From: Candidatus Eremiobacteraceae bacterium | GTDB taxonomy: Bacteria; Vulcanimicrobiota; Vulcanimicrobiia; Eremiobacterales; Eremiobacteraceae | DNA length: 37,635 nt | Reading direction: 5' to 3' | Assembly (NCBI GenBank): GCA_035710745.1 | Contig: DASTCX010000034.1 | Span: 1-37,635, forward strand | Shown: one piece after another, positions 13,807-32,526 of the stretch | Position numbering within the stretch: the first letter of the stretch is position 1 | How the letters are laid out: each line of letters begins with the position of its first letter | Translations under genes and position numbers: made by a program | The notes under the pieces: model-generated | The model's input: only the letters and a program-made list of their open reading frames with translations | The model's database searches: none | What the model was told of the DNA's origin: nothing

Positions 13807-13862
13807 GTAGCGGTCGCGCGATTGCAGAGTCGTCTCCGGTCGAGCTGAAGCTCGACCGCTAC
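13807..13862. repeat. GGTCGA/TCGACC palindromic repeat, composite copy
   Basis: The inner palindrome GGTCGAGCT-GA-AGCTCGACC occupies 13838-13857. An outer 10-base inverted pair, GTAGCGGTCG (13807-13816) and CGACCGCTAC (13853-13862), shares its right arm, so two alternative hairpins are possible. It matches the copies inside dnaE2 at 27496-27515 and 27601-27620 apart from one central base. It lies between a terminator and the DUF3311 gene. Confidence 0.75.
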
Positions 13863-13916
13863 AAGCGATTAGCGGATGCAGGTCAGGTCCCGCCACAGCG
13901 CCTAAAACACCCGCTC

Positions 13917-20496: not shown

Positions 20497-20550
20497 GAGG
20501 AGTCACGTGTTCGACCTGGGCCGCCTCGTCCTCTCCACCAAGAAAAGGGA

Positions 20551-20574
20551 GCGGTCGAGATTTATCTCGACCGC
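20551..20574. repeat. GGTCGA/TCGACC palindromic repeat upstream of clpB
   Basis: GCGGTCGAGAT (20551-20561) and ATCTCGACCGC (20564-20574) form an 11-base perfect palindrome with a 2-base centre. Read on the minus strand it continues into GCTCCCTTTTC, the flank also seen after the copies at 27439 and 27544. It lies between the clpB start and the lipoprotein stop, in the presumed 5' region of clpB. Confidence 0.75.
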
Positions 20575-20580
20575 CGCGGC

Positions 20581-21618
20581 CTAGTTCGGCAGCGTGTTGG
20601 GAATCGTCGTGAAGCCGTCCGGATGGCCTGTCACGTATGATCCCTCCGCCCGGCCGTCCGGGAAGCTGCTCTGAAGGATGAAGGTGAAGCTGCCGCTCAC
20701 ATCTTGGTCGCCGATGAATACCTCCGTCGAGTCGGCGCTGAGGCGAATCCCGCCAGAGCAGTTCGCGCCGAGGTCGTGCGCCTTGCCTGTCGCCTTTTCG
20801 TACGGCTTCGGGTACACGACCATCCGGCCTTCGATCCCACCGGCGCACTCGTCCGGGTTGTCGAGCGTCACGAGATCGTCCGTCTTCGGATCGATCGCCA
20901 GACCCGAATATCCGCCCGAGATCTTGAGCGCGAGCTCGAAGCACTGATGCGGTTCGGGTCCATTTGCGCCGTTCGGCATCTCGATGATGCGCGCGGCGAA
21001 TCTCGGCGTGAAAACGGCGACGAAGATATCACCCTCGTTGTCCGCCGCGATGCCATACGAGAGATCGATAAGCCCGCAACCGGAAAGATCGCGCGGATGT
21101 TGGCGATCGCCTCTTGGATACTCGACGACGGTGTCGGCTGGCCGCGTACTGTTGGTGACGAAGATGTTCTCGTTCTTGTCGATCGCCACGTCGAGTGCCG
21201 ACCCGAACGGGTCGGGAAGGGTCGTCTGCGCGGCGGTCGCGACGTTATAGAGGAGGACCGACGGGCCGCTCGTCGCGATCGCGACGACGTTGCCGTGCGC
21301 AGCGAGCGAAGTGAAGCCGAGACCGAGCGGACCTGAGATCGGCTGCGGGTTGCTACCGCCGCCCATCGTGATCGGCCACGCTTCAAGTTCACCGGTGTCG
21401 CCGCTGACCGCGATGATCGCGGGGCGCGTGAACGCAGATCGCACGTCCGGATGCGCCGCGAATGGCGCCGAGAGATTCAGGGCCGGCTGCCCGAAAGCCG
21501 GCGCTCGCGGGCCGGTGCCGATCGACGGGGTCGACGATGGCCCGGCCGAGCATGCGGCGACGAAAAGACCGACGACGCCGAACGCGAGCCTCGCGATCGG
21601 ATTGATGTGCTCTTGCAT
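20581..21618 (-). CDS. Propeller-type lipoprotein
   Basis: A 345-aa protein. ATG 21618 is chosen because GGGAGAG lies close upstream and it gives a lipoprotein signal (ARLAFGVVGLFVAAC, lipobox VAAC). A Ser/Pro-rich linker leads into a propeller-like repeat region with NHL/SMP-30-like strands: ALDVAIDKNENIFVTNSTRP, SYGIAADNEGDIFVAVF, YSGLAIDPKTDDLVTLDN and GGIRLSADSTEVFIGDQD. The function is unknown; extracytoplasmic binding is plausible. It resembles the 12748-13710 lipoprotein in design but not closely in sequence. Only 84 bases separate it from clpB downstream, so readthrough into clpB is possible. Confidence 0.78.
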   Translation of the reverse strand: MQEHINPIARLAFGVVGLFVAACSAGPSSTPSIGTGPRAPAFGQPALNLSAPFAAHPDVRSAFTRPAIIAVSGDTGELEAWPITMGGGSNPQPISGPLGLGFTSLAAHGNVVAIATSGPSVLLYNVATAAQTTLPDPFGSALDVAIDKNENIFVTNSTRPADTVVEYPRGDRQHPRDLSGCGLIDLSYGIAADNEGDIFVAVFTPRFAARIIEMPNGANGPEPHQCFELALKISGGYSGLAIDPKTDDLVTLDNPDECAGGIEGRMVVYPKPYEKATGKAHDLGANCSGGIRLSADSTEVFIGDQDVSGSFTFILQSSFPDGRAEGSYVTGHPDGFTTIPNTLPN

Positions 21619-21758
21619 GATGACTCTCCCGACAGGCCCTGTGCCAGTTACGATACAGCAGCGGGACTCCAAAAGCAAAGCCGCGGGGGCCGACTTATGA
21701 CGCAGGACCGGACTGACTGCCTCCGCCTAGCCGGCCGGTCTCCGGGCGTGATAACGGG

Positions 21759-21787
21759 TTGACGCCTCGGTGGCTCGGCGTTACAAT
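21759..21787 (+). promoter_or_regulatory. Sigma-70-type promoter of the pilin-like operon
   Basis: TTGACG (21759-21764) and TACAAT (21782-21787) are separated by exactly 17 bases. Five of six positions match consensus in each box. Transcription should start near 21794, about 33 bases before the TTG start proposed for the first pilin-operon gene. The GTG at 21770, which would give the longest reading frame, lies inside this promoter and so cannot be used from it. Confidence 0.72.
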
Positions 21788-21826
21788 TACGCCCACTTAT
21801 CGCTCTTCGTGTCGGAGCGGTCGATC

Positions 21827-23320
21827 TTGCGCATTCGCTTCATCAATGGCGGCGGCCGGCACACCCGTTCGAGGGCGCTCGCTGGGGCGTTGGCCATCCT
21901 CTCGTTCGTCGTCGTCGGCGGAATGGGGAACGAGGCCCAGGCCGCCTCGTCGCAGTCCTACGTGCCGGCGGTCCTCGCCTCGATGCACGACTTTCGCGGA
22001 CGCATCGACTACGTCGCCAAGCGAGACGACAACTCGGCCGTCGTCGACGGCACGCTCATCGTCGACGACCAAGGTTGGATCCTCGACGAGCGCACTCGAT
22101 CGTTCGAACTCCACGCGAATCCCAAATCCGCGAGCGTTCGATCGTCCGCCGGCGATTCGGTCACCGTCGACGATCTGTTCGGTTCCGACGCTTTATCGAA
22201 CGCATGGGCGCCACTGCTCGGCGAAAGCGCTGCGTCGACGCTCGTGAAGGCGGATAATCCTGGGTTGTGGGATAGCGGCGATCTTCGCGTCTTCCTCGAT
22301 CCAACCGGTTCGCAGGTCATCGGCTTCCGCGAGACTCGCGATAACGTGGCCTACACGCTCGACGAGTGGTGGGCGGTCGGACCGCTCGTGGTGCCGCATC
22401 GCATCCTGCGGTTGCGCGGGGGTGAGCCGTCCGTTTCGTATACGGTCAGCGACTATGTGATCCAACCCACCGTCGTAGGTCAGGGACGCGGTGCGACTCC
22501 CGCCGCCGGCCTTTCGCTAACGGAGCGATCTGTAGGCTTTGTGACCCTCGATGATGTGCCCATTTTCGACGTGACGTGGGCGCAGCGAGCGGCGGCGATC
22601 GCTTTTGCGCTGCTCGTGCTCGCCCTCGGCATCGTCGCATGGTCGAGGCGCGATGCGCTGATCGGCGCGTTGTGCGTGCGGATGGCACGCGACCCGCGCG
22701 GCTGGCGCACTGCAGGCGTCTCTGTGTTCGTCGAACCCGACGGCACGATGACGGTCGACGGCAGCCGCTATCGCGTCGGGCCGCACTTCTTCAATCGCGC
22801 CGCGCTGGTCCAACGATCCGTCTTGTTCGTCCGCGTCAGCTCGCCGGCCGTGCCGCACGTCGTCATCCTGCCGCGAAAGTTCACGCGCATCGAACTCGGG
22901 CTTGCGGTTCGGGGATCGCGGAAGCGCGTCGCCGGATTCACTCTCATCGAGACCATGGTGGCGACCGCGCTGTTCGCGGGCGTCGTGCTGCTTGCCGTCT
23001 ATCCGGCGATCGCCGCCGTCGCTCGCGCCGATGCGATGGCCAGCAAGCGCGCCGAGGCTGTTGTCCTCGCGTCGAACGCGCTCGCCGACGAAGAAGCGGC
23101 GAGTGCGTACGATACGAACGGATCGTTCGGGAAGACGACGACCACCGTCGATGGCCTCACGACGATCGTAACCGTCTCGCCCGGAACGATCCGCGACGAG
23201 AGCGATCTCGACGTCGTCGTCACGGACGGTAACGGCGACGTCCTCGCGCACGTCGTCAGTTGGCTCGGCGTCGCGGTCGGTGCGCCGCCGAGTTCGAGCG
23301 GAGGACCGCCGCAGCAATGA
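21827..23320 (+). CDS. Type IV pilin-like protein fused to a large exported N-terminal domain
   Basis: A 497-aa product if started at TTG 21827, which has GGAG nine bases upstream and follows the promoter correctly. It then begins with a Sec-type signal peptide (ALAGALAILSFVVVGG, cleavage near AQA-AS). Residues about 40-240 form a beta-rich domain reminiscent of LolA-like folds. A transmembrane segment (AAAIAFALLVLALGIVAW, about 258-276) and a cytoplasmic segment with RDPRGW...VEPDGTMTVDG follow. Then comes a class III pilin motif RKRVAGFTLIETMVATALFA, with the cleavage glycine at residue 370 and Glu at mature position 5. An internal GTG at 22850 could start a separate pilin with a 28-residue leader. 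PilV-like in position and order. Confidence 0.72.
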   Translation: MRIRFINGGGRHTRSRALAGALAILSFVVVGGMGNEAQAASSQSYVPAVLASMHDFRGRIDYVAKRDDNSAVVDGTLIVDDQGWILDERTRSFELHANPKSASVRSSAGDSVTVDDLFGSDALSNAWAPLLGESAASTLVKADNPGLWDSGDLRVFLDPTGSQVIGFRETRDNVAYTLDEWWAVGPLVVPHRILRLRGGEPSVSYTVSDYVIQPTVVGQGRGATPAAGLSLTERSVGFVTLDDVPIFDVTWAQRAAAIAFALLVLALGIVAWSRRDALIGALCVRMARDPRGWRTAGVSVFVEPDGTMTVDGSRYRVGPHFFNRAALVQRSVLFVRVSSPAVPHVVILPRKFTRIELGLAVRGSRKRVAGFTLIETMVATALFAGVVLLAVYPAIAAVARADAMASKRAEAVVLASNALADEEAASAYDTNGSFGKTTTTVDGLTTIVTVSPGTIRDESDLDVVVTDGNGDVLAHVVSWLGVAVGAPPSSSGGPPQQ

Positions 23321-24021
23321 TCGCGCATGTGGAGTATCGTTGCACAAAGGACCGCGGCGTCGCGCTCATCAGCGTGTTGTTCTCTATCGTGCTCTTGCTC
23401 GCGCTCGTCGCTGTGCTCGTCGACATCGGCACGTTGCGTCTGCAGCGTACGACTGCCGATCTGTTCTCGCTCCAGGCGCTCGCGGGGGCGGACGGCGGTA
23501 CGGCGTGGGTCCGAGCGGAGCTCGATCAAGAGCATGGAGATCTCGGTGCGACGCAAACAAAGATCGGGGCGACCCAGGGCAAACGACGTTTCGTCATCGA
23601 TGACCATACGTACGTCGTCGCGACCGAGTCAATCGTCCAGAATTCTTCCGGCCAGGAGAACGACCACGTCGACGACGATGTGCAGACGAACCTTCCTGTC
23701 CCCGAACAAGTCGCGCAAGTTGAGTCATCTGCGGCTGTCTACGCCGACGGCGTTGTGGTCGCTCGCCGCGACACGAGCGTCCTGATTCGCGTATTCCCCG
23801 CGTCACCTTATTCCGAAGTCGTCGGGTACGTCGATGACGCGAGCGCGGTCGGCGTCGACAGTCCGGGCGATGCGGCGGGACAGGAGCATGCACTCGATAC
23901 GACCGATCTCGTCGTCCACTCCTACCAGTTCAACGGCTCGCTTATCCTCAAGGGCCAAGACGTATTCAAGACGCAGAAATGGTCCGACGGCAACACCTCC
24001 GGCTCGGGACCGCTGCCGTGA
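23317..24021 (+). CDS. PilX/GspK-like minor pilin
   Basis: A 234-aa product starting at ATG 23317, which overlaps the previous stop (ATGA). After a short basic leader (MIAHVEYRCTKDRG) comes a hydrophobic pilin-like helix VALISVLFSIVLLLALVAVL. Cleavage after Gly14 is expected. Mature position 5 is serine instead of the usual glutamate, which fits GspK/PilX-type tip subunits that lack Glu5. A helical stretch (QRTTADLFSLQALAGADGG) and a beta-rich C-terminal domain follow. The gene is sandwiched between two other pilin-like genes with 4-base overlaps, so the products probably act in one pseudopilus tip complex. Confidence 0.72.
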   Translation: MIAHVEYRCTKDRGVALISVLFSIVLLLALVAVLVDIGTLRLQRTTADLFSLQALAGADGGTAWVRAELDQEHGDLGATQTKIGATQGKRRFVIDDHTYVVATESIVQNSSGQENDHVDDDVQTNLPVPEQVAQVESSAAVYADGVVVARRDTSVLIRVFPASPYSEVVGYVDDASAVGVDSPGDAAGQEHALDTTDLVVHSYQFNGSLILKGQDVFKTQKWSDGNTSGSGPLP

Positions 24022-24548
24022 ATCGTGCGACCCTGATCAACATCCGCGCTTTCACAACGCTCGAGCTGCTTGTCGCCTGTTCCATCCTGACCGTGCTCGC
24101 GCTCGTCGCCCTATTGCCGCGCTACGTGGAGTACGCCCGCGCGCGACAAGTCGGCGACGCGGCGTCGATCCTTTCGCAAGACATGGCCTACCTCGAACGC
24201 TTCGCGCAGAACAGCGAGCCGTTCGAGGGAGCGACGATTGAGATCGACTCCGCAGATCCTTTGGAGTATACGTGCTACAGCGGACGTCCGAGCGGCTTGG
24301 ATCCGTTGTCGCACATCCGCTCGGCGCTCTTCGTGCGTTCGTTCCCCGATGTCGCAGTAGCTTCGGGGCCGCTTCACCGCGGCAGCCCGTTCCTATTCGC
24401 CCACAATGGGAGCGTCCAATATGTGGATCACGGACAGTGGGCCGATCAGCATCTAGTCGTGACGGTCGAGCTGCGCTCGCGCGTCGATGATTCGAGAACG
24501 AGCGATGTCGTCGTCAACCCGTTCACGGGTGGCATCTCGACGCCCTGA
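24018..24548 (+). CDS. Type IV pilin-like (pseudopilin) protein
   Basis: A 176-aa product from GTG 24018, overlapping the previous stop (GTGA). The leader MNRATLINIRA precedes FTTLELLVACSILTVLALVA, a pilin N-terminal helix with Glu at mature position 5. The residue before the cleavage site is alanine, whereas prepilin peptidases normally need glycine; some substrates with alanine there are processed, but often less efficiently. The C-terminal domain resembles GspH/FimT-type minor pilins in size. It is the third gene of the pilin-like operon; no assembly ATPase or platform gene lies in the window. Confidence 0.72.
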   Translation: MNRATLINIRAFTTLELLVACSILTVLALVALLPRYVEYARARQVGDAASILSQDMAYLERFAQNSEPFEGATIEIDSADPLEYTCYSGRPSGLDPLSHIRSALFVRSFPDVAVASGPLHRGSPFLFAHNGSVQYVDHGQWADQHLVVTVELRSRVDDSRTSDVVVNPFTGGISTP

Positions 24549-24623
24549 CCTATCGGCACGTCCGTTATGAGCGAATGGCCGCGATAGGCCCGAGCCCACG
24601 CATCCGCGAAATTCGCCTCTGGT

Positions 24624-25391
24624 ATGAATGTAGTACACGCCATTCTTTGTTCGGCGGTGTTGTTGTTTTCGCTTGTCATGGTGGGGCCGGCCCGCGCTGC
24701 GTCTGATTGCGGATTCAATCTCGATTACGCGGAGTTGATCGCTATCGGCGCTGCCCACCGCGAAGCGTTGTATCTCGTAACTTTCACTTCAGAGAGCTCC
24801 GCGAATCGTCGCGTTTTTCCGATCGTTTTTCATCTCACGGGCGGCACGGACGCAGGCGTGACCACAGCCTTCGATGCCGAACAGGTCACCGCGGCGGCAG
24901 GCAAGAGTTGGGATTCGGCAGCGTTCCTGGTGGTGTTTCCCTCACCGGGCATTCGGTGGTTCACCCTGGACAGTGTCGCAGTCGGAACGACCTCGACAAT
25001 TTGTGCAGAGGATGACAGATACGTCCTTCCTGAGGCATTGTGCTCGACAGACGGCACGTTCGATGACGCGGCGTCGGCACCGGGCCCGCTCCCGATCGCC
25101 ATGGTCTTCGAGCCTCCGGCTTTTATCTATAAGATTGCGCCACACTATCCCGATGATGCCAAGGACCAACACCTTCAAGGCGATGTGACCGTGGCTGTCA
25201 CCATCGACGCAACAGGTAAGACCACCGACGCGATGGTGGTCACTGGCTCGGGCTATCGCTACCTGGATGACGCCGCTCTTGCCGCTGCGCGGGGTTCCGG
25301 ATTCGGACCGTTCATCATGCCGGTCGCGCTCGGAATCAAGCCAGCAGCGATACGGTTCGTGATAATCTATAGTTTTAGGCTCGACGAGTAA
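24624..25391 (+). CDS. Exported protein with TonB C-terminal domain (copy 1)
   Basis: A 255-aa product with a cleavable signal peptide (MNVVHAILCSAVLLFSLVMV, cleavage near ARA-AS). An N-terminal domain of about 125 residues contains two or three cysteines (CGFNLDYAELIAIG, STICAEDD, EALCSTDG). The C-terminal 90 residues match the TonB C-terminal fold: APHYPDDAKDQHLQGDVTVA, then VTIDATGKTTDAMVVTGSG and LDDAALAAAR. Classical TonB is anchored by an uncleaved N-terminal helix and has a proline-rich spacer; both are missing here, so energy transduction is unlikely. A paralogue follows 23 bases later. No ExbB or ExbD is nearby. The role is unknown. Confidence 0.8.
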   Translation: MNVVHAILCSAVLLFSLVMVGPARAASDCGFNLDYAELIAIGAAHREALYLVTFTSESSANRRVFPIVFHLTGGTDAGVTTAFDAEQVTAAAGKSWDSAAFLVVFPSPGIRWFTLDSVAVGTTSTICAEDDRYVLPEALCSTDGTFDDAASAPGPLPIAMVFEPPAFIYKIAPHYPDDAKDQHLQGDVTVAVTIDATGKTTDAMVVTGSGYRYLDDAALAAARGSGFGPFIMPVALGIKPAAIRFVIIYSFRLDE

Positions 25392-25414
25392 TAGTTGTCG
25401 GCAAAGGGGTGCTT

Positions 25415-26206
25415 GTGAATCGACGGCGGTTGAGGATGAACGCCATTTATGCCGGCATGGCCTTAACAGTCGCAGTCTTCACGTGGAACCTACCCGCCAT
25501 CGCCGCCTCGGCTCCGATGCCCCCGCCATGCAAAGCGTCGATCGCGCTCGCTGAGCTCGCGGCGATCGGCACGACACACCGATACGCGGAGTACGTCCTC
25601 TTCTTCGTCCCTGCAAAAGGTGTCAAGGGCGATCTGACGATCCACTTCACAGCGAGCACCGACGCCGGTACGTCGACGCCCCTGGTCGTAACGGGCCTCC
25701 AGGCAGGGTCGAGCGAGCGCGAGCGGGGCGAGGAAGCCGTAATCGTCGTGGCTCCCGCGGCGGGCTTAAGGACGTTCGCCGTCGACAGCATCGACACGGC
25801 GACAGGGGGCCAGACCTGCTCGAACGTCTCCTTCACCCTGTCGACGCTCACGTACTCGACGACCTTCTCCTTCGATGACACCGCTTCGTGGGTCGCGCTC
25901 GGCAAGCCGACAATCCTCTCTCTTTCCGACGCGAACTTCAAGAGCCGGATTTATCCGAATTATCCTGACATGGCCAAGGAGGAGAATATCCAAGGTGACG
26001 TTACGGTCGCCGTCGTCATCGGCGAGGATGGTGGCGTGGAGGAGGCATGGGTCAAAGATTCGTCAGGCAGCGCCGATTTGGACGGCGCAGCCGTGACGGC
26101 TGCGAAGCAGTCGATTTTTGCAGCTGCTCATCTCCCGGCGGCCTACGGTGGCGTCGCGGTCGGCTCGATCTACTACATCGTTTACAGCTTCAGGTTGGAT
26201 CAATAG
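25415..26206 (+). CDS. Exported protein with TonB C-terminal domain (copy 2)
   Basis: A 263-aa paralogue of the preceding product. GTG 25415 is chosen because AAAGGGG ends 5 bases upstream; GTG 25409 and ATG 25436 are alternatives. The signal peptide (AGMALTVAVFTWNLPAIAA) is followed by the same N-terminal pattern (CKASIALAELAAIGTTHRYA, compare CGFNLDYAELIAIGAAHREA in copy 1). The TonB C-terminal domain reads YPNYPDMAKEENIQGDVTVA and GGVEEAWVKDSSGSADLDGA, ending IVYSFRLDQ (copy 1 ends IIYSFRLDE). The pair clearly arose by tandem duplication and has diverged considerably. It is followed by the convergent cupin gene. Confidence 0.8.
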   Translation: MNRRRLRMNAIYAGMALTVAVFTWNLPAIAASAPMPPPCKASIALAELAAIGTTHRYAEYVLFFVPAKGVKGDLTIHFTASTDAGTSTPLVVTGLQAGSSERERGEEAVIVVAPAAGLRTFAVDSIDTATGGQTCSNVSFTLSTLTYSTTFSFDDTASWVALGKPTILSLSDANFKSRIYPNYPDMAKEENIQGDVTVAVVIGEDGGVEEAWVKDSSGSADLDGAAVTAAKQSIFAAAHLPAAYGGVAVGSIYYIVYSFRLDQ

Positions 26207-26705: not shown

Positions 26706-29700
26706 CTATCGGAAGTCGCGCGATGTCAGGCCTTCTTCGAGCCGCTCCAGGTCGAGCTTCCAGAACTTGCGCGCGAGCACGTTGATCGTGCCGTCCTGTT
26801 TTTGCAATATGCCTTCCACGATGACCGCAGGTTCCTCGCGCGCGACCGGCCGGTAGCGTTCGTAGATGTCCGGTCTGATGATGACGTTGATGAGGCCGGT
26901 CTCATCCTCCATCGTCGTGAAGACGAAACCTTTCGCGGTTCCAGGACGCTGGCGCGTCGTCACGACGCCGGCCACCTTTAGGACGAGGCGATGCGGCAAG
27001 CTCGGCAGATCGGATGCGCGGTGGACCCGCAGCTTGTCGAGCTCCTCGCGATAGAACTGGATCGCTTGATAGCGCGTCGATAGGCTCAAGCCCCAGAAAT
27101 CGGCGGCGGCTTCTTCTACGGGACGCATCGGCGGCAGCGATACTTGCTGTTCGTCGACGGTCATACCGCGTTCCAGCGCCCCGACGCGCGGCAGGTCGCC
27201 GAGCCGCTGGACTTGCCAGAGCGCCTCGCGGCGCAAAAGGCCGAAGCACGCGAATGCGTCGACCGCGGCGAGCGATTCGAGGACGTCTTTCGCAAGGCTC
27301 GTTCGCAAGATGAAATCGCGGACGTCGCTGTACGGGCCTTTCGTGCGCTCTGCGTTGAGGTGCTCGCGATGTTTCTCTCCGATGCCACGCACTTGGTTGA
27401 GGCCGATACGCATCGCGTACCGCGGATGCGCGGCCGCGGCGGTCGACGATAAACGTCGACCGCTCCCTTTTCCATCATCGTGCGAGGCCGACTCCGGTCG
27501 AGCTAAAGCTCGACCGCTACAATCCGTTGCTTGCGCGGCCGCGGCGGTCGACGATAAACGTCGACCGCTCCCTTTTCCATCATCGTGCGAGGCCGGCTCC
27601 GGTCGAGCTAAAGCTCGACCGCTACAATCCGCTGGTTGCGAGGCCGCGCCGGTCGAGATAGATCTCGACCGCTCCCCATCGATCAGCGGTTCGGAAGTGC
27701 ATTCGTAGGCCGAGGCGTTTACATCCGGCGGCAGCACGACGACGCCGCGACGGCGCGCGTCGGCGACCAGCGAAGCCGGCGAGTAGAAACCCATCGGCTG
27801 CGCGTTGAGGAGCGACGCATAGAACTCCGGCGCGTAGTGCACCTTGAGATAGCCCGAGACGTAGACGATGAGCGCGAACGACGCCGCGTGCGATTCCGGA
27901 AAACCGTAGTCGGCGAACGCGCTCAACATCTGGTACAGACGCGCGCCGAGCTCCGCCGAGATGCCGTTGTGCGTCATGCCCTCGATGAGCCGGCCGCGCA
28001 GCCGCTCCATCTTCTCGCGCGACCGTTTGTGGCCCATCGCGCGGCGCAGTTCGTCCGCCTGGCCGGCCGTGAATCCCGCGACCTCGACCGCCATGCGCAT
28101 GCCCTGCTCTTGGAAGAGCGGCACGCCGAGCGTCCGCTCGAGCACCGGCACGAGCTTCGGATGCGGATAATCGACCTGCTCGCGGCCCTGGCGCCGGCGT
28201 ATATAAGGATGGACCATGTCGCCTTGGATCGGTCCGGGGCGGATGATCGCGACCTGGACGACGACGTCGTAGAAGCGCCGAGGCTTCAGCCGAGGCAGCG
28301 ACGCCATTTGCGCGCGCGATTCGACTTGGAACAGACCGACCGTATCGGCGGCGCACAGCATGTCGTAGACGGCGGGATCGTCGCAGCCGCGCAGGTCCGC
28401 GAGGTCGACCTTGATGCCGCGAACGCGATCGATCTCGGCGATGGAACGCTCGATCGCGTCGAGCATGCCCAAGCCCAAGATGTCGATCTTGATGAGCCCG
28501 AGCGTCGCGCAGTCATCCTTATCCCAACAGAGGATCGTCCGGTTCGGCATCGCGGCGGGCTCGAGCGGCGCGACTTCGACGAGCGGCGACCGCGTGACGA
28601 CCATGCCGCCGACGTGCTGGCTCAAGTGGCGCGGGAACGAGTCGATGCGGCCGCAGAGCGCATACAGCCGGCGCGCGACGTCGCCGCCGAGATCGACTTT
28701 AAGCGCCGCCGGCATCGATTCGACCGCCGCTTCGACGGCGGCCGCAGACATCGACGTCCAATCGCCGTGCTTGGTCACGCCGAGCGCTTCGTGAGGCGCG
28801 AGCGACGCGGCGACCTGCGACGCTTCTTCTTCGACGGCGATGGCGGCGTGGCTGTCGAGCGACTTCGCGAGCGCATCGACCTGGTCGAGCGACAAGCCGA
28901 GCGCCTTACCGATGTCGCGCACGGCCATGCGCGCGCGATAGCAGATGACTTCGGCAACCATCCCCGCATGTTCGCGGCCATACCGTTCGTAGACGTATTG
29001 GATGATCGCTTCGCGCTGATCGCCGGACGGCGTGTCGAGATCGATATCGGGCAGCTCGTCGCGCTCTTCCGACAAAAACCGCTCGAAGAGCAGTCCGAGG
29101 CCGACGGGATCGACGCTCGTGATGTTGAGCGCGTAGCACACCGCCGAGTTCGCGGCAGAGCCGCGCCCCTGGACGAGGATATTGCGCTCGCCTGCGAAGC
29201 GCACGATATCCCAGACGATGAGGAAGTAGCCGGCGAGGTCGAGCTTCTCGATGACGCCGAGCTCGTGCGCGATCTGACGACTCACCGCGACCGTCACAGG
29301 CCGGTATCGGCGACGCACGCCCTCCTGCACGAGCATGTGGAGATACGAGAACGCGGTCTCGCCGGGCGGCAGCGGAAAATCGGGGAATTCGCCCTGGAGA
29401 CGTTCGAGCCGATACGCACAGCGCTGCGCGATGGCGACGCTCGCCGCGACCGCTCGCGGATGCTCGGCGAACAGGTGCTCCATCTGCGCAGGCGAGCGCA
29501 TGTAGTACTCGCCGTTCGGACGCAGTCGCGTGCCGGCTTCGTCGAGCGTCGTCTTCAGGCGGATGCAACAGAGGACGTCGGAGAGATCGCGATGTTCGGG
29601 CAGCGCGTAATGGACGCCGCCGGTCGCGACCGTGCCGAGATCGAGCGCTTGCGCGAGCGCGACGAGCGACCGGATGCGCGGGCCGTCATCGGGCACGAGA

Positions 29701-30188
29701 TGCCGCTGCAGCTCGATCCAGAAATTCGACCAGCCGAAGATGTCGCGCAGGCGAGCCGCCGTCGTCGATGCTTCGCGAAAATCGCCCTTCGCGAGCGCGA
29801 CCGGTACGGCGCCGCGATCGCAGCCCGAGAGCGCGATGAGTCCGCGCGAGTGTCGTGCGAGCAGTTCGTACGAGGTGCTCGGCTCGCCGCGCGGGTGATC
29901 GAGCCGCGCGCGGCTGATCAAGCGCGATAGATTCGCATAGCCTTCTTTCGACTCGACGAGGACGACGAGATGACTCTCGTCTTCGAGTGTCAGCTCCGCG
30001 CCGATGATCGCCGGGATATCGGCTTCGCGTCCGGATTGCGCGAAACGGACGGCGCCGTACAGACCGTCGCGATCGGTGATGGCGACGCCCGCGAGCCCGA
30101 GCGCTTTGGCGCGATCGATCAGCTCCTCGGGGTGCGACCCGCCGTCAAGGAGCGTGAAATTCGAGTGGACGTGCAGTTCGGCGTACAT
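26706..30188 (-). CDS. dnaE2: Error-prone DNA polymerase III alpha subunit DnaE2 (ImuC)
   Basis: A 1160-aa C-family polymerase, the catalytic subunit of the ImuA-ImuB-DnaE2 translesion mutasome. An N-terminal PHP domain (ELHVHSNFTLLDGGSHPEEL) is followed by the palm. Catalytic Asp381 and Asp383 lie in PDIDLDTPSGDQRE, and GRGSAANSAVCYAL is conserved. A C-terminal OB-fold (VAGVVTTRQRPGTAKGFVFT) is present, and I saw no clamp-binding motif after it. Unusual: residues about 838-921, between NASAYECTSEPL and MRIGLNQVRGIG, are composed of palindromic DNA repeats. They read as two near-identical 35-residue units (CSGRALARP, GKGSGRRLSSTAAAA) plus a partial third. Elsewhere the protein looks intact. 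imuB lies 67 bases upstream. Confidence 0.93.
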   Translation of the reverse strand: MYAELHVHSNFTLLDGGSHPEELIDRAKALGLAGVAITDRDGLYGAVRFAQSGREADIPAIIGAELTLEDESHLVVLVESKEGYANLSRLISRARLDHPRGEPSTSYELLARHSRGLIALSGCDRGAVPVALAKGDFREASTTAARLRDIFGWSNFWIELQRHLVPDDGPRIRSLVALAQALDLGTVATGGVHYALPEHRDLSDVLCCIRLKTTLDEAGTRLRPNGEYYMRSPAQMEHLFAEHPRAVAASVAIAQRCAYRLERLQGEFPDFPLPPGETAFSYLHMLVQEGVRRRYRPVTVAVSRQIAHELGVIEKLDLAGYFLIVWDIVRFAGERNILVQGRGSAANSAVCYALNITSVDPVGLGLLFERFLSEERDELPDIDLDTPSGDQREAIIQYVYERYGREHAGMVAEVICYRARMAVRDIGKALGLSLDQVDALAKSLDSHAAIAVEEEASQVAASLAPHEALGVTKHGDWTSMSAAAVEAAVESMPAALKVDLGGDVARRLYALCGRIDSFPRHLSQHVGGMVVTRSPLVEVAPLEPAAMPNRTILCWDKDDCATLGLIKIDILGLGMLDAIERSIAEIDRVRGIKVDLADLRGCDDPAVYDMLCAADTVGLFQVESRAQMASLPRLKPRRFYDVVVQVAIIRPGPIQGDMVHPYIRRRQGREQVDYPHPKLVPVLERTLGVPLFQEQGMRMAVEVAGFTAGQADELRRAMGHKRSREKMERLRGRLIEGMTHNGISAELGARLYQMLSAFADYGFPESHAASFALIVYVSGYLKVHYAPEFYASLLNAQPMGFYSPASLVADARRRGVVVLPPDVNASAYECTSEPLIDGERSRSISTGAASQPADCSGRALARPEPASHDDGKGSGRRLSSTAAAAQATDCSGRALARPESASHDDGKGSGRRLSSTAAAAHPRYAMRIGLNQVRGIGEKHREHLNAERTKGPYSDVRDFILRTSLAKDVLESLAAVDAFACFGLLRREALWQVQRLGDLPRVGALERGMTVDEQQVSLPPMRPVEEAAADFWGLSLSTRYQAIQFYREELDKLRVHRASDLPSLPHRLVLKVAGVVTTRQRPGTAKGFVFTTMEDETGLINVIIRPDIYERYRPVAREEPAVIVEGILQKQDGTINVLARKFWKLDLERLEEGLTSRDFR
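27427..27670. repeat. In-frame 105-bp tandem array of paired palindromes inside dnaE2
   Basis: Two copies of a 105-bp unit (27427-27531 and 27532-27636) are followed by a partial third (27637-27670). Each full unit holds two palindromes: GCGGTCGACG-ATAAA-CGTCGACCGC (27439-27463 and 27544-27568) and GGTCGAGCT-AA-AGCTCGACC (27496-27515 and 27601-27620). The partial unit carries GGTCGAGAT-AG-ATCTCGACC (27651-27670). Spacing is exactly 105 bases, that is 35 codons, and the minus-strand dnaE2 frame stays open throughout. The two units differ at only a few positions, so the duplication is recent compared with the rest of the gene. Confidence 0.88.
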
Positions 30189-30193
30189 TGTCC

Positions 30194-30227
30194 GATGTGT
30201 ATGGTTAGATGTGTATGGTTAGATGTG
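30194..30227. repeat. 14-bp tandem repeat in the imuB-dnaE2 gap
   Basis: GATGTGTATGGTTA occurs at 30194-30207 and 30208-30221, with a further partial GATGTG at 30222-30227. It fills the leader just before the dnaE2 start, where little ribosome-binding sequence is visible. Confidence 0.7.
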
Positions 30228-30231
30228 GTAT

Positions 30232-30248
30232 GCCGAGCGAAGCTCGGC
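30232..30248. other. Hairpin between imuB and dnaE2
   Basis: GCCGAGC (30232-30238) and GCTCGGC (30242-30248) pair around a GAA triloop, 8 bases past the imuB stop. No T-run follows on the minus strand. It may attenuate or protect the message between imuB and dnaE2, or be a diverged palindromic repeat. Confidence 0.45.
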
Positions 30249-30255
30249 TCGTTCT

Positions 30256-31746
30256 CTAGTCGAACACCCCCTGCAGATACCAGCGCCCGTCGCAGAGATC
30301 GCGGAAGACGAGCATGAGCCCGCCCGCGCGATCCATCAATTGGTAGTAGTCGCGATCGACGGGGCGCTCCCACCAGCTCTCGCTCAAGCGGAACGGTCCG
30401 GCGCACGTCGATGCGGCGTTCGGCGCTTCGATGAGCTTCGGCGGGCTGACGAGCCGCAATGCCGGCGCCCACGTGCGGCCGGAGCGTTCGACATCAGGCC
30501 GGACGCCGTTCGAGATCGGCGGATCGGACGGTTCCATCTGCTTCGGCGACGCGACCGGCACCGACCGCTGCATGCGCTCCGGCAGGCGCGAACGCGCCGG
30601 TGACGGTTCGACGATAACGACGCCGTCGGGTTCGAGCGTCGCGCGCAGACGTGCGAGCGTCGCGGCAAGCGCCGCGCGGCGCGATGCGCTCGCACCGCCG
30701 AAGAGCGTCATCTGCGGCGGCGGCAGTCCGCACGGCGTCGCGCGCACGATCGCCGCTTCGACTTCGCCGAGCCGTTCGCGCGACTCGAGCGCGATGCGGA
30801 CGAGATCGAAGACCGTCGCGGCCGAAGCGGTCGGCTCGGCGAGCATGACGGGAATCGTGACGACGCTATGCGTGCGGTCGATCGTCGTCTCGATCGCGAG
30901 CTCGACCTTGTCGCACACCTGTGCCGCGCCTGCAAGCCGCGCGCAGAGATCCGCGATGCAGCCGCGCAGCGTGAAAAGCAGCGGCTCGAGCCGGTCGATG
31001 CAGTCGTCGAAAGCGAAGCGCTCTTCGTAGACGGTTTGACAGTGGCGCGGCCGCAACGGCTCGTCGTCGTCACCGCGCGCGAGCCGCACGTATTCGCGCG
31101 CGCGTTCGCCGAAGCGCGCCGCGAGCGGACCGACGGGCATCGCTGCGATCTGACCGATCGTGCGCAGGCCGAGCAGATCGAAGCGATCCGCATCGCCCGG
31201 CGCGAGCGGCAATCGCGTCATCGGCAGCGGCTCCAGGAACGCGGCGCTGCCGCCGGGCGGCACGACGATCGCGCCAAGCATCGCGGCGGCGCAGCGCGCC
31301 GTGAACTTGTCGTCCGCGATGGAGGCAGCGCCGGCGAAGCCGAGCGACTTCGCGACCGCGATCGCCGCGCCGAGCGCACCCGTCTCGCCGGCCGGCAGAT
31401 TCGTCGCGTCGAAATAACACAGACCCGGAGCGCGGCCTTCGACGTCGGGACCGCAGGTCTCGAGCGCATCGAGCAGTTCCACGATCGCCGCACGTTCGGC
31501 GACTTCGTCGCGCGCGACGACGACGAGGCCCGGACACGCTGCCCGTGCCTGCTTCGGCGTCATGCCGACCTCGACGCCGCTCGCACCGTGACCCGCGCCG
31601 ATGATCTCGCGGCGCGACGCACCTTCCGCGACGGCGATCGGCCGGTTCGCGAGCGATGGGTTCGCGCGCAAGCTGACCTCGACGAGGAAGTGCGGCATGA
31701 AGAGACAGGCGATGCGACGATCACGCATGGGCGGCGACTCGCTCAT
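30256..31746 (-). CDS. imuB: ImuB, catalytically inactive Y-family polymerase
   Basis: A 496-aa Y-family polymerase-like protein that bridges DnaE2 to the sliding clamp in the SOS mutasome. The N-terminus RRIACLFMPHFLVEVSLRAN replaces the DMDAFF active-site motif of true Y-family polymerases, as expected for ImuB. The fold continues with AEGASRREIIGAGHGASGVE and the helix-hairpin region. A beta-clamp-binding motif QMTLF lies at residues about 345-349. The C-terminus RDLCDGRWYLQGVFD is typical of ImuB. ATG 31746 and ATG 31728 are both plausible; a longer frame to 31800 would consist of palindromic repeat sequence. The start overlaps the end of imuA. Confidence 0.88.
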   Translation of the reverse strand: MSESPPMRDRRIACLFMPHFLVEVSLRANPSLANRPIAVAEGASRREIIGAGHGASGVEVGMTPKQARAACPGLVVVARDEVAERAAIVELLDALETCGPDVEGRAPGLCYFDATNLPAGETGALGAAIAVAKSLGFAGAASIADDKFTARCAAAMLGAIVVPPGGSAAFLEPLPMTRLPLAPGDADRFDLLGLRTIGQIAAMPVGPLAARFGERAREYVRLARGDDDEPLRPRHCQTVYEERFAFDDCIDRLEPLLFTLRGCIADLCARLAGAAQVCDKVELAIETTIDRTHSVVTIPVMLAEPTASAATVFDLVRIALESRERLGEVEAAIVRATPCGLPPPQMTLFGGASASRRAALAATLARLRATLEPDGVVIVEPSPARSRLPERMQRSVPVASPKQMEPSDPPISNGVRPDVERSGRTWAPALRLVSPPKLIEAPNAASTCAGPFRLSESWWERPVDRDYYQLMDRAGGLMLVFRDLCDGRWYLQGVFD

Positions 31747-32485
31747 CGGGTCGAGCTTCGCTCGACCGGTCGACCGTAAAGGTCGACCGCTCCATTGCAT
31801 CGTCGAGGGACGTCGGCCACGAACCCGCGACGTCGGGCAGCGCCGCGCGGATCGTCGCGCGCTTGCCGGGCGCGTGCATCCGCGATTTCACCACTTCGAC
31901 CGACGCGGTGCAGCCCGCGAGCCGGCCGCGCGCCGCGCTGCCCTCCTGCCACACCGGCGTCAGACCGGCGGCGCGCAAGCGCAGCGAGGCGAACGATGCG
32001 AGAGCGGGCACGTCGCCGTTCGACAGCGCGACGATCGCCGTGCCGGTCCTCTCCGCTTGTGATGCGAGCCGCGTGCAGTGATGCGCGCGCAAGACGTCGC
32101 CGAGGCCGGTACAGTCGAAGACGACGAGCGCGCACGCGCCGCAACGCGCGACCGCGTCGACCGCGCGGCGTGCAAGATCGGCATTGCGCGGGCGCACGAC
32201 GAGCAGCCGCGACAGCTGGATGCCTGCGCCTGCGGCCGCAGGCGCGAAGAGCGCGTCGGCGGGATCGATGTATGCGGCGAGCAGGCCGCCGGCCGTGCAC
32301 GCGGCGAGCAGCGCGAACGCGATGCTCGTCTTACCGGACGACGGCGCGCCGAACACTTCGATCAAACGACCGCGCGGCACGCCGGACGGCGCGAGCAGCG
32401 CATCGAGTGCGGTGTTCGTGAAGAGCGCACTGCGCTCGGGCTGCACCAAGGCGCGCCCTCGCAGATCGGCTATAGACAAAGACAT
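31721..32485 (-). CDS. imuA: ImuA, RecA-like SOS mutagenesis protein
   Basis: A 254-aa RecA-fold ATPase-like protein, the first gene of the imuA-imuB-dnaE2 cassette. The Walker A motif is EVFGAPSSGKTS (residues about 43-54), followed by AAYIDPADALFAPAAAGAGI and VVFDCTGLGD (Walker B region). ImuA of other bacteria interacts with ImuB and modulates RecA; the exact role is still open. ATG 32485 is chosen, with GTG 32491 as an alternative. The last 24 or so residues (from MERSTFTVDRSSEARPDERV) are encoded by palindromic repeat DNA and look like an acquired tail. It is preceded by a LexA-box promoter. Confidence 0.85.
   Translation of the reverse strand: MSLSIADLRGRALVQPERSALFTNTALDALLAPSGVPRGRLIEVFGAPSSGKTSIAFALLAACTAGGLLAAYIDPADALFAPAAAGAGIQLSRLLVVRPRNADLARRAVDAVARCGACALVVFDCTGLGDVLRAHHCTRLASQAERTGTAIVALSNGDVPALASFASLRLRAAGLTPVWQEGSAARGRLAGCTASVEVVKSRMHAPGKRATIRAALPDVAGSWPTSLDDAMERSTFTVDRSSEARPDERVAAHA
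31749..31788. repeat. Two adjacent palindromes at the imuA/imuB junction
   Basis: GGTCGAGC-TTC-GCTCGACC (31749-31767) is directly followed by GGTCGACC-GTAAA-GGTCGACC (31768? counted as 31768-31788 by base position). Both belong to the family seen in dnaE2. They encode the C-terminal tail of ImuA in frame and end immediately before the proposed imuB start at 31746. Confidence 0.75.
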
Positions 32486-32526
32486 AGTCACCCGAAATCG
32501 CGCCCGTGCCGTGTCGTTGGGTGCTT

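Follow-up and report, generated by a model that had tools for sequence, protein, structure and literature searches.

Prepilin leaders are usually regarded as short throw-away tags, and those described are 6 to 26 residues long (accessible part of PMC4471445). In the window, which is the whole 37,635-nucleotide stretch of DNA analysed here (contig C34 of a 2.97-Mb genome of Candidatus Eremiobacterota, 97.9% complete), a prepilin-peptidase site is found far inside a single open reading frame, behind a signal peptide, a beta-rich domain, a membrane helix, and a cytoplasmic region. This arrangement raises the question of what the gene produces. A first-pass annotation made from the sequence alone had offered two answers, either that a prepilin peptidase releases two proteins from one precursor, or that a second, internal start makes the pilin alone.

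Gene structure and predicted domains

The open frame runs from 21770 to the TGA at 23318-23320, with the TTG at 21827 inside it. Because the promoter-like site overlaps the GTG at 21770, the start at 21827 is the likelier one, and a GGAG is located a few bases 5' of this TTG. The promoter consensus scan, which covered both strands from 21600 to 24700, returned 2 sites compared to 0.5 expected. Signal peptides were judged by eye from a comparison of the N-terminal stretches of all 14 proteins. The AlphaFold model of the whole chain had a pTM of 0.40, and single domains alone were used for fold matches. Residues 217 to 249 were modelled as flexible, as was the linker after residue 349 up to residue 370, and the predicted pilin helix (residues 373 to 427) is followed by a four-strand head that extends to about residue 480.

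Table 1. Features of the fusion gene, its operon, and the stand-alone copies. Positions are those of the window unless a locus is named.
Feature	Position	Strand	Content or basis
Fusion gene, 497 aa	21827..23320	+	Signal peptide, LolA-like domain, membrane helix, cytoplasmic domain, minor pilin
Sigma-70-like promoter, TTGACG-17-TACAAT	21759..21787	+	Consensus scan, 10/12 positions; match to consensus alone
Predicted signal peptide, residues 1-39, AQA^A	21827..21943	+	Read by eye: basic start, hydrophobic core, AxA-like end
Predicted periplasmic LolA/LolB/RseB-fold domain, residues 43-215	21953..22471	+	AlphaFold model, structural matches
Predicted membrane helix, residues 251-273, N-out/C-in	22577..22645	+	AlphaFold model, Lys/Arg counts
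Cytoplasmic small beta domain, residues 294-349	22706..22873	+	Predicted model, conservation
Variable basic linker ending in prepilin-peptidase site, putative cut after G370	22883..22936	+	
GspI/XcpV-like minor pilin, 127 aa mature, plus stop codon	22937..23320	+	XcpV fold match
GspK/PilX-like pilin, second operon gene, RG^VALIS, no Glu5	23317..24021	+	ATGA overlap with fusion gene
GspH-like small prepilin, third operon gene	23979..24548	+	Likelier start GTG 24018, GTGA overlap
Stand-alone copy, 233 aa	L044 7328-8029	minus	
Stand-alone copy	L043 7526-7915	minus	Contig end interrupts

Conservation of the joint

The single frame that the first-pass annotation had read through both halves recurs in the relatives. 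In the GTDB family, translated loci from every one of the 14 genomes, which span 9 genera, carry both halves in one continuous frame, and neither a stop nor a frameshift was found between the halves in any of the 14; on the annotation's question of one gene or two, separated genes with a stop were found in 0/14. The joint was sampled by protein search (61 genomes), profile search (14 family genomes), and translation (14 loci). The single in-frame TGA that was reported, in G002, sits 5' of the protein's ATG. A scan of named genomes returned 8 loci, every one the fusion, with a pattern that was derived from the pilin head and is therefore no test for the front half elsewhere.

An open frame alone is no proof of a fusion, because long frames arise by chance in this GC-rich genome, in which one ordinary prepilin has 152 open codons upstream. 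The fusion goes beyond chance because the front half is conserved at the protein level and is in one frame with the pilin in 14/14 genomes. The fusion is genuine and is not an assembly error.

When a profile of the front half was searched against 149 genomes of the phylum, it matched the 14 family genomes and none of the 135 others; at the class level the result was 0/103 others among 117 genomes. The possibility that the front half occurs as a separate gene in sister families was rejected on this basis. The architecture is fixed in the GTDB family and was seen nowhere outside it among the 149 genomes.

The pilin part and its operon

At its C-terminal end the fusion has a GspI-like minor pilin, which is set apart by a class III signal that is internal rather than N-terminal. 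Residues 371 to 481 matched XcpV (chain 9a1f_R) with a Z score of 9.1 and an rmsd of 2.4 over 103 residues, and the matches to XcpV, EpsI, and GspI ranged from Z 9.1 to 8.5 (also 5bw0, 2ret, and 3ci0_I). The short beta head of the pilin fold is present in the predicted model. The gspI model TIGR01707 gave 17.4 bits for the window protein against a cut-off of 44.35, and matched 10/14 members at E values up to 1 (best, 3.6e-5); because the score is under the cut-off, the protein is named GspI-like and not GspI.

The GspK-like gene adjoins the fusion in 14/14 genomes. The GspH-like gene is present in the window and in 12/13 relatives, with a contig end in the remaining one. A divergent clpB is located upstream in 11/13 relatives and dnaE2 downstream in 8/13, contig ends permitting. 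For comparison, the region upstream of the GspK-like gene was inspected in 16 other genomes of the class that had a GspK-like match. A separate Glu5 prepilin with a leader of 6 to 10 residues was found at 8/16 of these outgroup loci (L117, L118, L120, L124, L125, L127, L128, and L129), and at the other 8, including L131, there was no upstream Glu5 prepilin under the filter or the contig ended. The order of pilin, GspK-like, and GspH-like genes with a separate pilin was also recognized by eye at L083, in an f3 genome. In the likeliest history, a minor-pilin operon that already existed acquired a front gene by a single joining event at the base of the family.

Several other features of the region and genome were recorded. 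A second minor-pilin set (G000:C14:16734-18126; L047) consists of two N_methyl prepilins with short leaders and a GspK-like match. Directly behind the pilin operon are two tandem genes for TonB_C-domain proteins (window 24624-25391 and 25409-26206, plus strand), and in the closest relative (L030) both TonB_C queries match one same region. A row of dnaE2-like polymerase, ImuB-like, and ImuA/RecA-like genes (window 26706-32491, minus strand) has, by eye, the look of an error-prone repair cassette. Short repeats are scattered over the genome on both strands, with copies in the window at 27427-27676, 20542-20582, 13831-13864, and 31767-31817 and further copies on contigs C3, C13, C14, C31, and C35. 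A tandem pair of the repeats, approximately 105 bp apart, is in frame within dnaE2 (26706-30188, minus strand), in which the repeats add residues where the tblastn matches of several relatives break. The scattered repeats resemble the in-gene palindromic elements of Rickettsia.

The predicted internal cut site

The prepilin site is located where the first-pass annotation had placed it, 370 residues into the protein, at RKRVAG^FTLIETMV, with the predicted cut between bases 22936 and 22937. The Pfam N_methyl model scored 21.8 bits at residues 365 to 384 of the window protein (cut-off, 21.2), and matched 10/14 family proteins at E values up to 1. The leader of type IV pilins ends in Gly or Ala, and prepilin peptidase acts on the cytoplasmic side (accessible part of PMC10191384). 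In the alignment of the 14 proteins, 13 have Gly at position -1 and Glu at position +5, and L015 alone has Ala and Asp instead. A Gly or Ala at -1, a hydrophobic helix of approximately 20 residues, and the Glu at +5 (Asp in one) are features of prepilins that are present in the fusion; an N-terminal signal is the feature that is absent, as 370 residues precede the cut compared to a leader of 6 to 26.

The linker in front of the site varied from 15 to 26 residues over the 14 rows, with 3 to 7 Lys or Arg among the 20 residues that immediately precede the pilin helix. Cutting by prepilin peptidase is favoured because the residue at -1, which is outside the mature pilin, has been held in a linker that is otherwise variable. 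The RNA at the joint (22840-22960) was predicted to fold less stably than the mean of shuffled sequences (z, +1.41), and there was no sign of a regulatory hairpin there.

The same genome has one copy of a PilD gene (L046 959-1750), with A24_N_bact (methylase) and Peptidase_A24 domains. T2SSE-type ATPases are encoded at 6 loci, and secretins at 2. The site assigned to each of the other 12 N_methyl matches in this genome, shifted in one of them (C3:52915), is preceded by a start codon at a distance of 4 to 12 codons.

Both halves of the fusion are under purifying selection in the closest pair (L009 and L010), for which dN/dS was 0.06 in the pilin helix, the most constrained part, 0.16 in the membrane helix plus cytoplasmic domain, 0.21 in the LolA-like domain, and 0.39 in the linker (dS, 0.82); these ratios are from one genome pair and short segments, with the signal peptide giving 1.14.

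The LolA-like domain and predicted membrane topology

The signal peptide, the beta-rich LolA-like domain, and the helix described in the first-pass annotation were all recovered, and residues 43 to 215 are predicted to form a half-barrel of the LolA/LolB/RseB superfamily. The AlphaFold model of this domain had pLDDT values of mostly 80 to 93. The matches included the DUF1329 structure 4z48 (Z, 12.0; rmsd, 3.6 over 166 residues), LolA 2w7q (Z, 11.4; rmsd, 3.1 over 143), and LolB 8cm1 (Z, 10.9; rmsd, 3.4 over 148), and overall the matches to LolA, LolB, DUF1329, and RseB ran from Z 12.0 down to 8, with rmsd values of 3.1 to 5.5. Identity in the aligned structural rows was 4 to 13%. The LolA, LolB, and RseB models of Pfam had no match in any of the 14 proteins at E values up to 10, and a sequence search of the PDB gave no match below an E value of 1. 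The alignment of the 14 front halves contains invariant residues.

In all 14 proteins the first internal helix has 0 to 2 Lys or Arg among the 20 residues on its N-terminal side compared to 4 to 6 among the 20 on its C-terminal side. This distribution, together with the basic linker, indicates that the chain turns back into the cytoplasm, in agreement with the topology originally proposed, in which it does so after one helix.

The cytoplasmic domain

The region behind the helix, called a cytoplasmic segment in the first-pass annotation, is not just a spacer, because the model and its conservation indicate a folded domain. The helix plus cytoplasmic domain was modelled with a mean pLDDT of 86.6, and the domain has 11 invariant columns in 16 rows. 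The best structural rows were IstA 8q4d (Z, 5.5; rmsd, 2.2 over 52 residues) and TnsB 7svw (Z, 5.4; rmsd, 2.5 over 57), in which the domain is like the C-terminal small barrel of IS21/Tn7-type DDE transposases, although Z scores under 8 may mean a common arrangement only. Matches to the corresponding Pfam model, PF22483 (Mu-transpos_C_2), were weak and below every cut-off (E, 0.01 to 0.1; 3/16 members and 2/7 trimmed domains), and the best E value with Foldseek was 0.36. A comparison with hhalign against a PF22483-type profile, built from 11 transposase-barrel domains of the phylum, gave 67.6% over 40 gapless columns compared to 0.04 to 0.6% for three control pairings. These comparisons are no more than suggestive of kinship between the predicted domain and the transposase C-terminal barrel. 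No transposase gene was seen beside the cytoplasmic-domain locus. Likeness to YcxB, an initial guess for this domain, was unsupported by a Pfam scan of the 16 rows.

Stand-alone copies of the helix plus cytoplasmic domain, with neither the pilin nor the LolA-like domain, were found in two genomes of one genus. Their C-terminal tails extend 20 residues from a conserved Arg-Arg, compared to 18 to 19 residues from there to the cut in fusion leaders of the same genus, and the copies thus end 1 to 2 residues beyond the position equivalent to the cut. Both group with the fusions of their own genus in the tree (support, 100/99). Because the tree places them within the fusions, the stand-alone copies probably derive from the fusion by duplication; the duplicate probably lost both the pilin and the LolA-like domain, and kept its end where prepilin peptidase would cut. 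That two species have retained a gene ending at this position is evidence in favour of a front product that functions. One stand-alone copy is beside a gene for an ATPase with N-terminal PilZ, MshEN, and T2SSE domains (L043 4836-7016, plus strand), and a 714-aa T2SSE frame (G000:C13:31234-32388) may be alike to this PilZ-MshEN-T2SSE ATPase.

A probable precursor for two proteins

Of the two answers offered by the first-pass annotation, release of two proteins by prepilin peptidase is the best fit to these results, and the internal start was unsupported. The gene probably encodes a two-protein precursor that prepilin peptidase would divide into a minor pilin and a LolA-like protein anchored in the membrane. 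The signal peptide would direct the LolA-like domain across the inner membrane, with a presumed cut by signal peptidase, and one helix would return the chain to the cytoplasm, where the small beta domain would fold. The short basic linker would then present the class III signal, with the pilin helix inserted N-in and the head outside, and the single PilD would cut after G370, leaving a mature pilin with the expected N terminus N-methyl-FTLIETMVATAL. Of the two products, one would be LolA/RseB-like, anchored in the membrane and equipped with the cytoplasmic domain; the other, the GspI-like minor pilin, could join its GspK- and GspH-like partners and start a type IV filament. One frame would yield both in equal amounts and in one place. 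The putative task of the LolA-like domain is that of a lipid or lipoprotein carrier, or of a periplasmic sensor near the base of the pilus. Both cleavages, membership in a tip complex, and lipid or lipoprotein binding are predictions of this scheme.

Four observations count against the precursor. PilD would be faced with a leader that includes a membrane helix and a folded domain, compared to 6 to 26 residues in the leaders described; in L015, position -1 is Ala and position +5 is Asp; the stand-alone copies are without the LolA-like domain and do not mimic the whole front product; and the ancestral gene order was not recovered at 8/16 sister loci, with no upstream Glu5 prepilin detected. A more specific version of the precursor model, in which PilD is a precursor-splitting protease, the freed LolA/RseB-like protein has a barrel possibly derived from a transposase, and the 'leader' of the pilin is a 370-residue protein made one-to-one with a minor pilin of the tip, has an about even chance of being right.

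It is unlikely that the fusion is never cut and that the pilin, tethered by its N terminus to the front half, serves the pilus machine as an immobile seed or scaffold in the membrane instead of becoming a subunit of the filament. A single frame in 14/14 genomes is equally expected in that case, and the folded domain in the leader may hinder PilD. However, a conserved Gly or Ala at -1 within a variable linker would have no purpose without cutting, and constraint on the protein is strongest in the pilin helix (dN/dS, 0.06), as it would be in a polymerising subunit.

Internal initiation at GTG 22850, TTG 22823, or their equivalents, which would add a conventional prepilin with a long leader to the fusion product, is rather improbable. 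These two codons are indeed the nearest in-frame starts upstream of the cut, as the first-pass annotation had it, and in-frame starts upstream of the cut are present in 14/14 genomes, the nearest giving a leader of 7 to 36 residues (from L009 to L022: 29, 36, 31, 13, 13, 16, 19, 7, 12, 19, 23, 17, 19, and 21). However, no start position is common to all 14, and in 3/14 the nearest start gives a leader of 29 to 36 residues (29 in the window). A start is found within 26 codons of the cut in 11/14 genomes, and chance predicts 79%, i.e., 11/14, with start codons making up 5.8% of the front-half codons (268/4619). Neither GTG 22850 nor TTG 22823 has a Shine-Dalgarno match, and a Shine-Dalgarno-like tetramer was present in 2/14 genomes among up to four internal starts per row within 45 codons, compared to 9/13 rows for the assumed N-terminal start where the 5' end is intact (L018, in which the contig interrupts the 5' end, was excluded). 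The linker is without synonymous constraint (dS, 0.82), and the only promoter-like site on the plus strand in 21600-24700 is the one at 21759. With unconserved starts at chance level, few Shine-Dalgarno matches, and a promoter-like site before the whole gene, there is no positive evidence for a separate start of the pilin.

Ordinary prepilin leaders are discarded, and such a fate would be the usual one if the front half were an oversized leader that is degraded after the PilD cut, with the pilin as the sole functional product. Selection on the LolA-like domain (dN/dS, 0.21) and on the helix plus cytoplasmic domain (0.16), the residues that are invariant across the 14 front halves, and the stand-alone helix plus cytoplasmic domain retained in two species make this very improbable. 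The chance that an assembly or sequencing error removed a stop or frameshift and so joined two genes is negligible, given that the same joint recurs in 14 separate genomes from 9 genera even as the linker ranges from 15 to 26 residues in length, and evidence in support of such an error was looked for and none was found.

Comparison with known systems

The proposed two-protein precursor departs in one respect or another from each system to which its parts can be compared. The minor pseudopilins GspI, XcpV, and EpsI (type II secretion; type IV pilus tip complex) are alike in the predicted fold of residues 371 to 481, and their operons are alike in that the neighbour genes here resemble GspK and GspH; their class III signal is N-terminal, whereas that of the fusion is approximately 365 residues into 497, and the gspI score is under its cut-off. 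The modular type IV pilins, such as PilB and PilC of Streptococcus sanguinis, likewise combine a pilin with a module of a kind also known outside pili; modular pilins of this type, in which the module follows the pilin, are common (accessible part of PMC8179133). In the fusion, the module is on the N-terminal side of the leader, and cutting would remove it rather than display it; the mature part of 127 residues is pilin only. The survey that described modular pilins could not find the layout of the fusion, because only N-terminal class III signals were taken (PMC8179133).

The predicted half-barrel is like those of LolA, LolB, and RseB (Z, 8 to 11 versus solved members), and the fusion differs in that there is no Pfam match, a C-terminal helix fixes the domain to the inner membrane, and a cytoplasmic domain follows. 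FbcH, the cytochrome b/c1 precursor of Bradyrhizobium japonicum, has an internal signal and is split into two working products of a membrane precursor. FbcH is cut outside by signal peptidase I, whereas the predicted cut in the fusion is made on the cytoplasmic side by prepilin peptidase. GspN of type II secretion was considered as a LolA-like precedent and set aside, since in the accessible part of the paper it is AsmA-like and a LolA-like chaperone is a mere possibility (PMC12802150). Among the titles and abstract openings returned by searches of an open-access library, there was no case of a prepilin whose leader is internal or very long, or of one linked to LolA.

Implications

If the precursor model is true, prepilin peptidase can act at an internal site behind a membrane segment that returns the chain to the cytoplasm, and there would be more possible substrates for this enzyme that predictors of N-terminal signals miss. 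Catalogues of pilins would be worth checking for class III signals that are distant from the N terminus. In this family, the precursor would then represent a natural, fixed one-to-one coupling between the initiation of a pilus and a LolA-like periplasmic protein.
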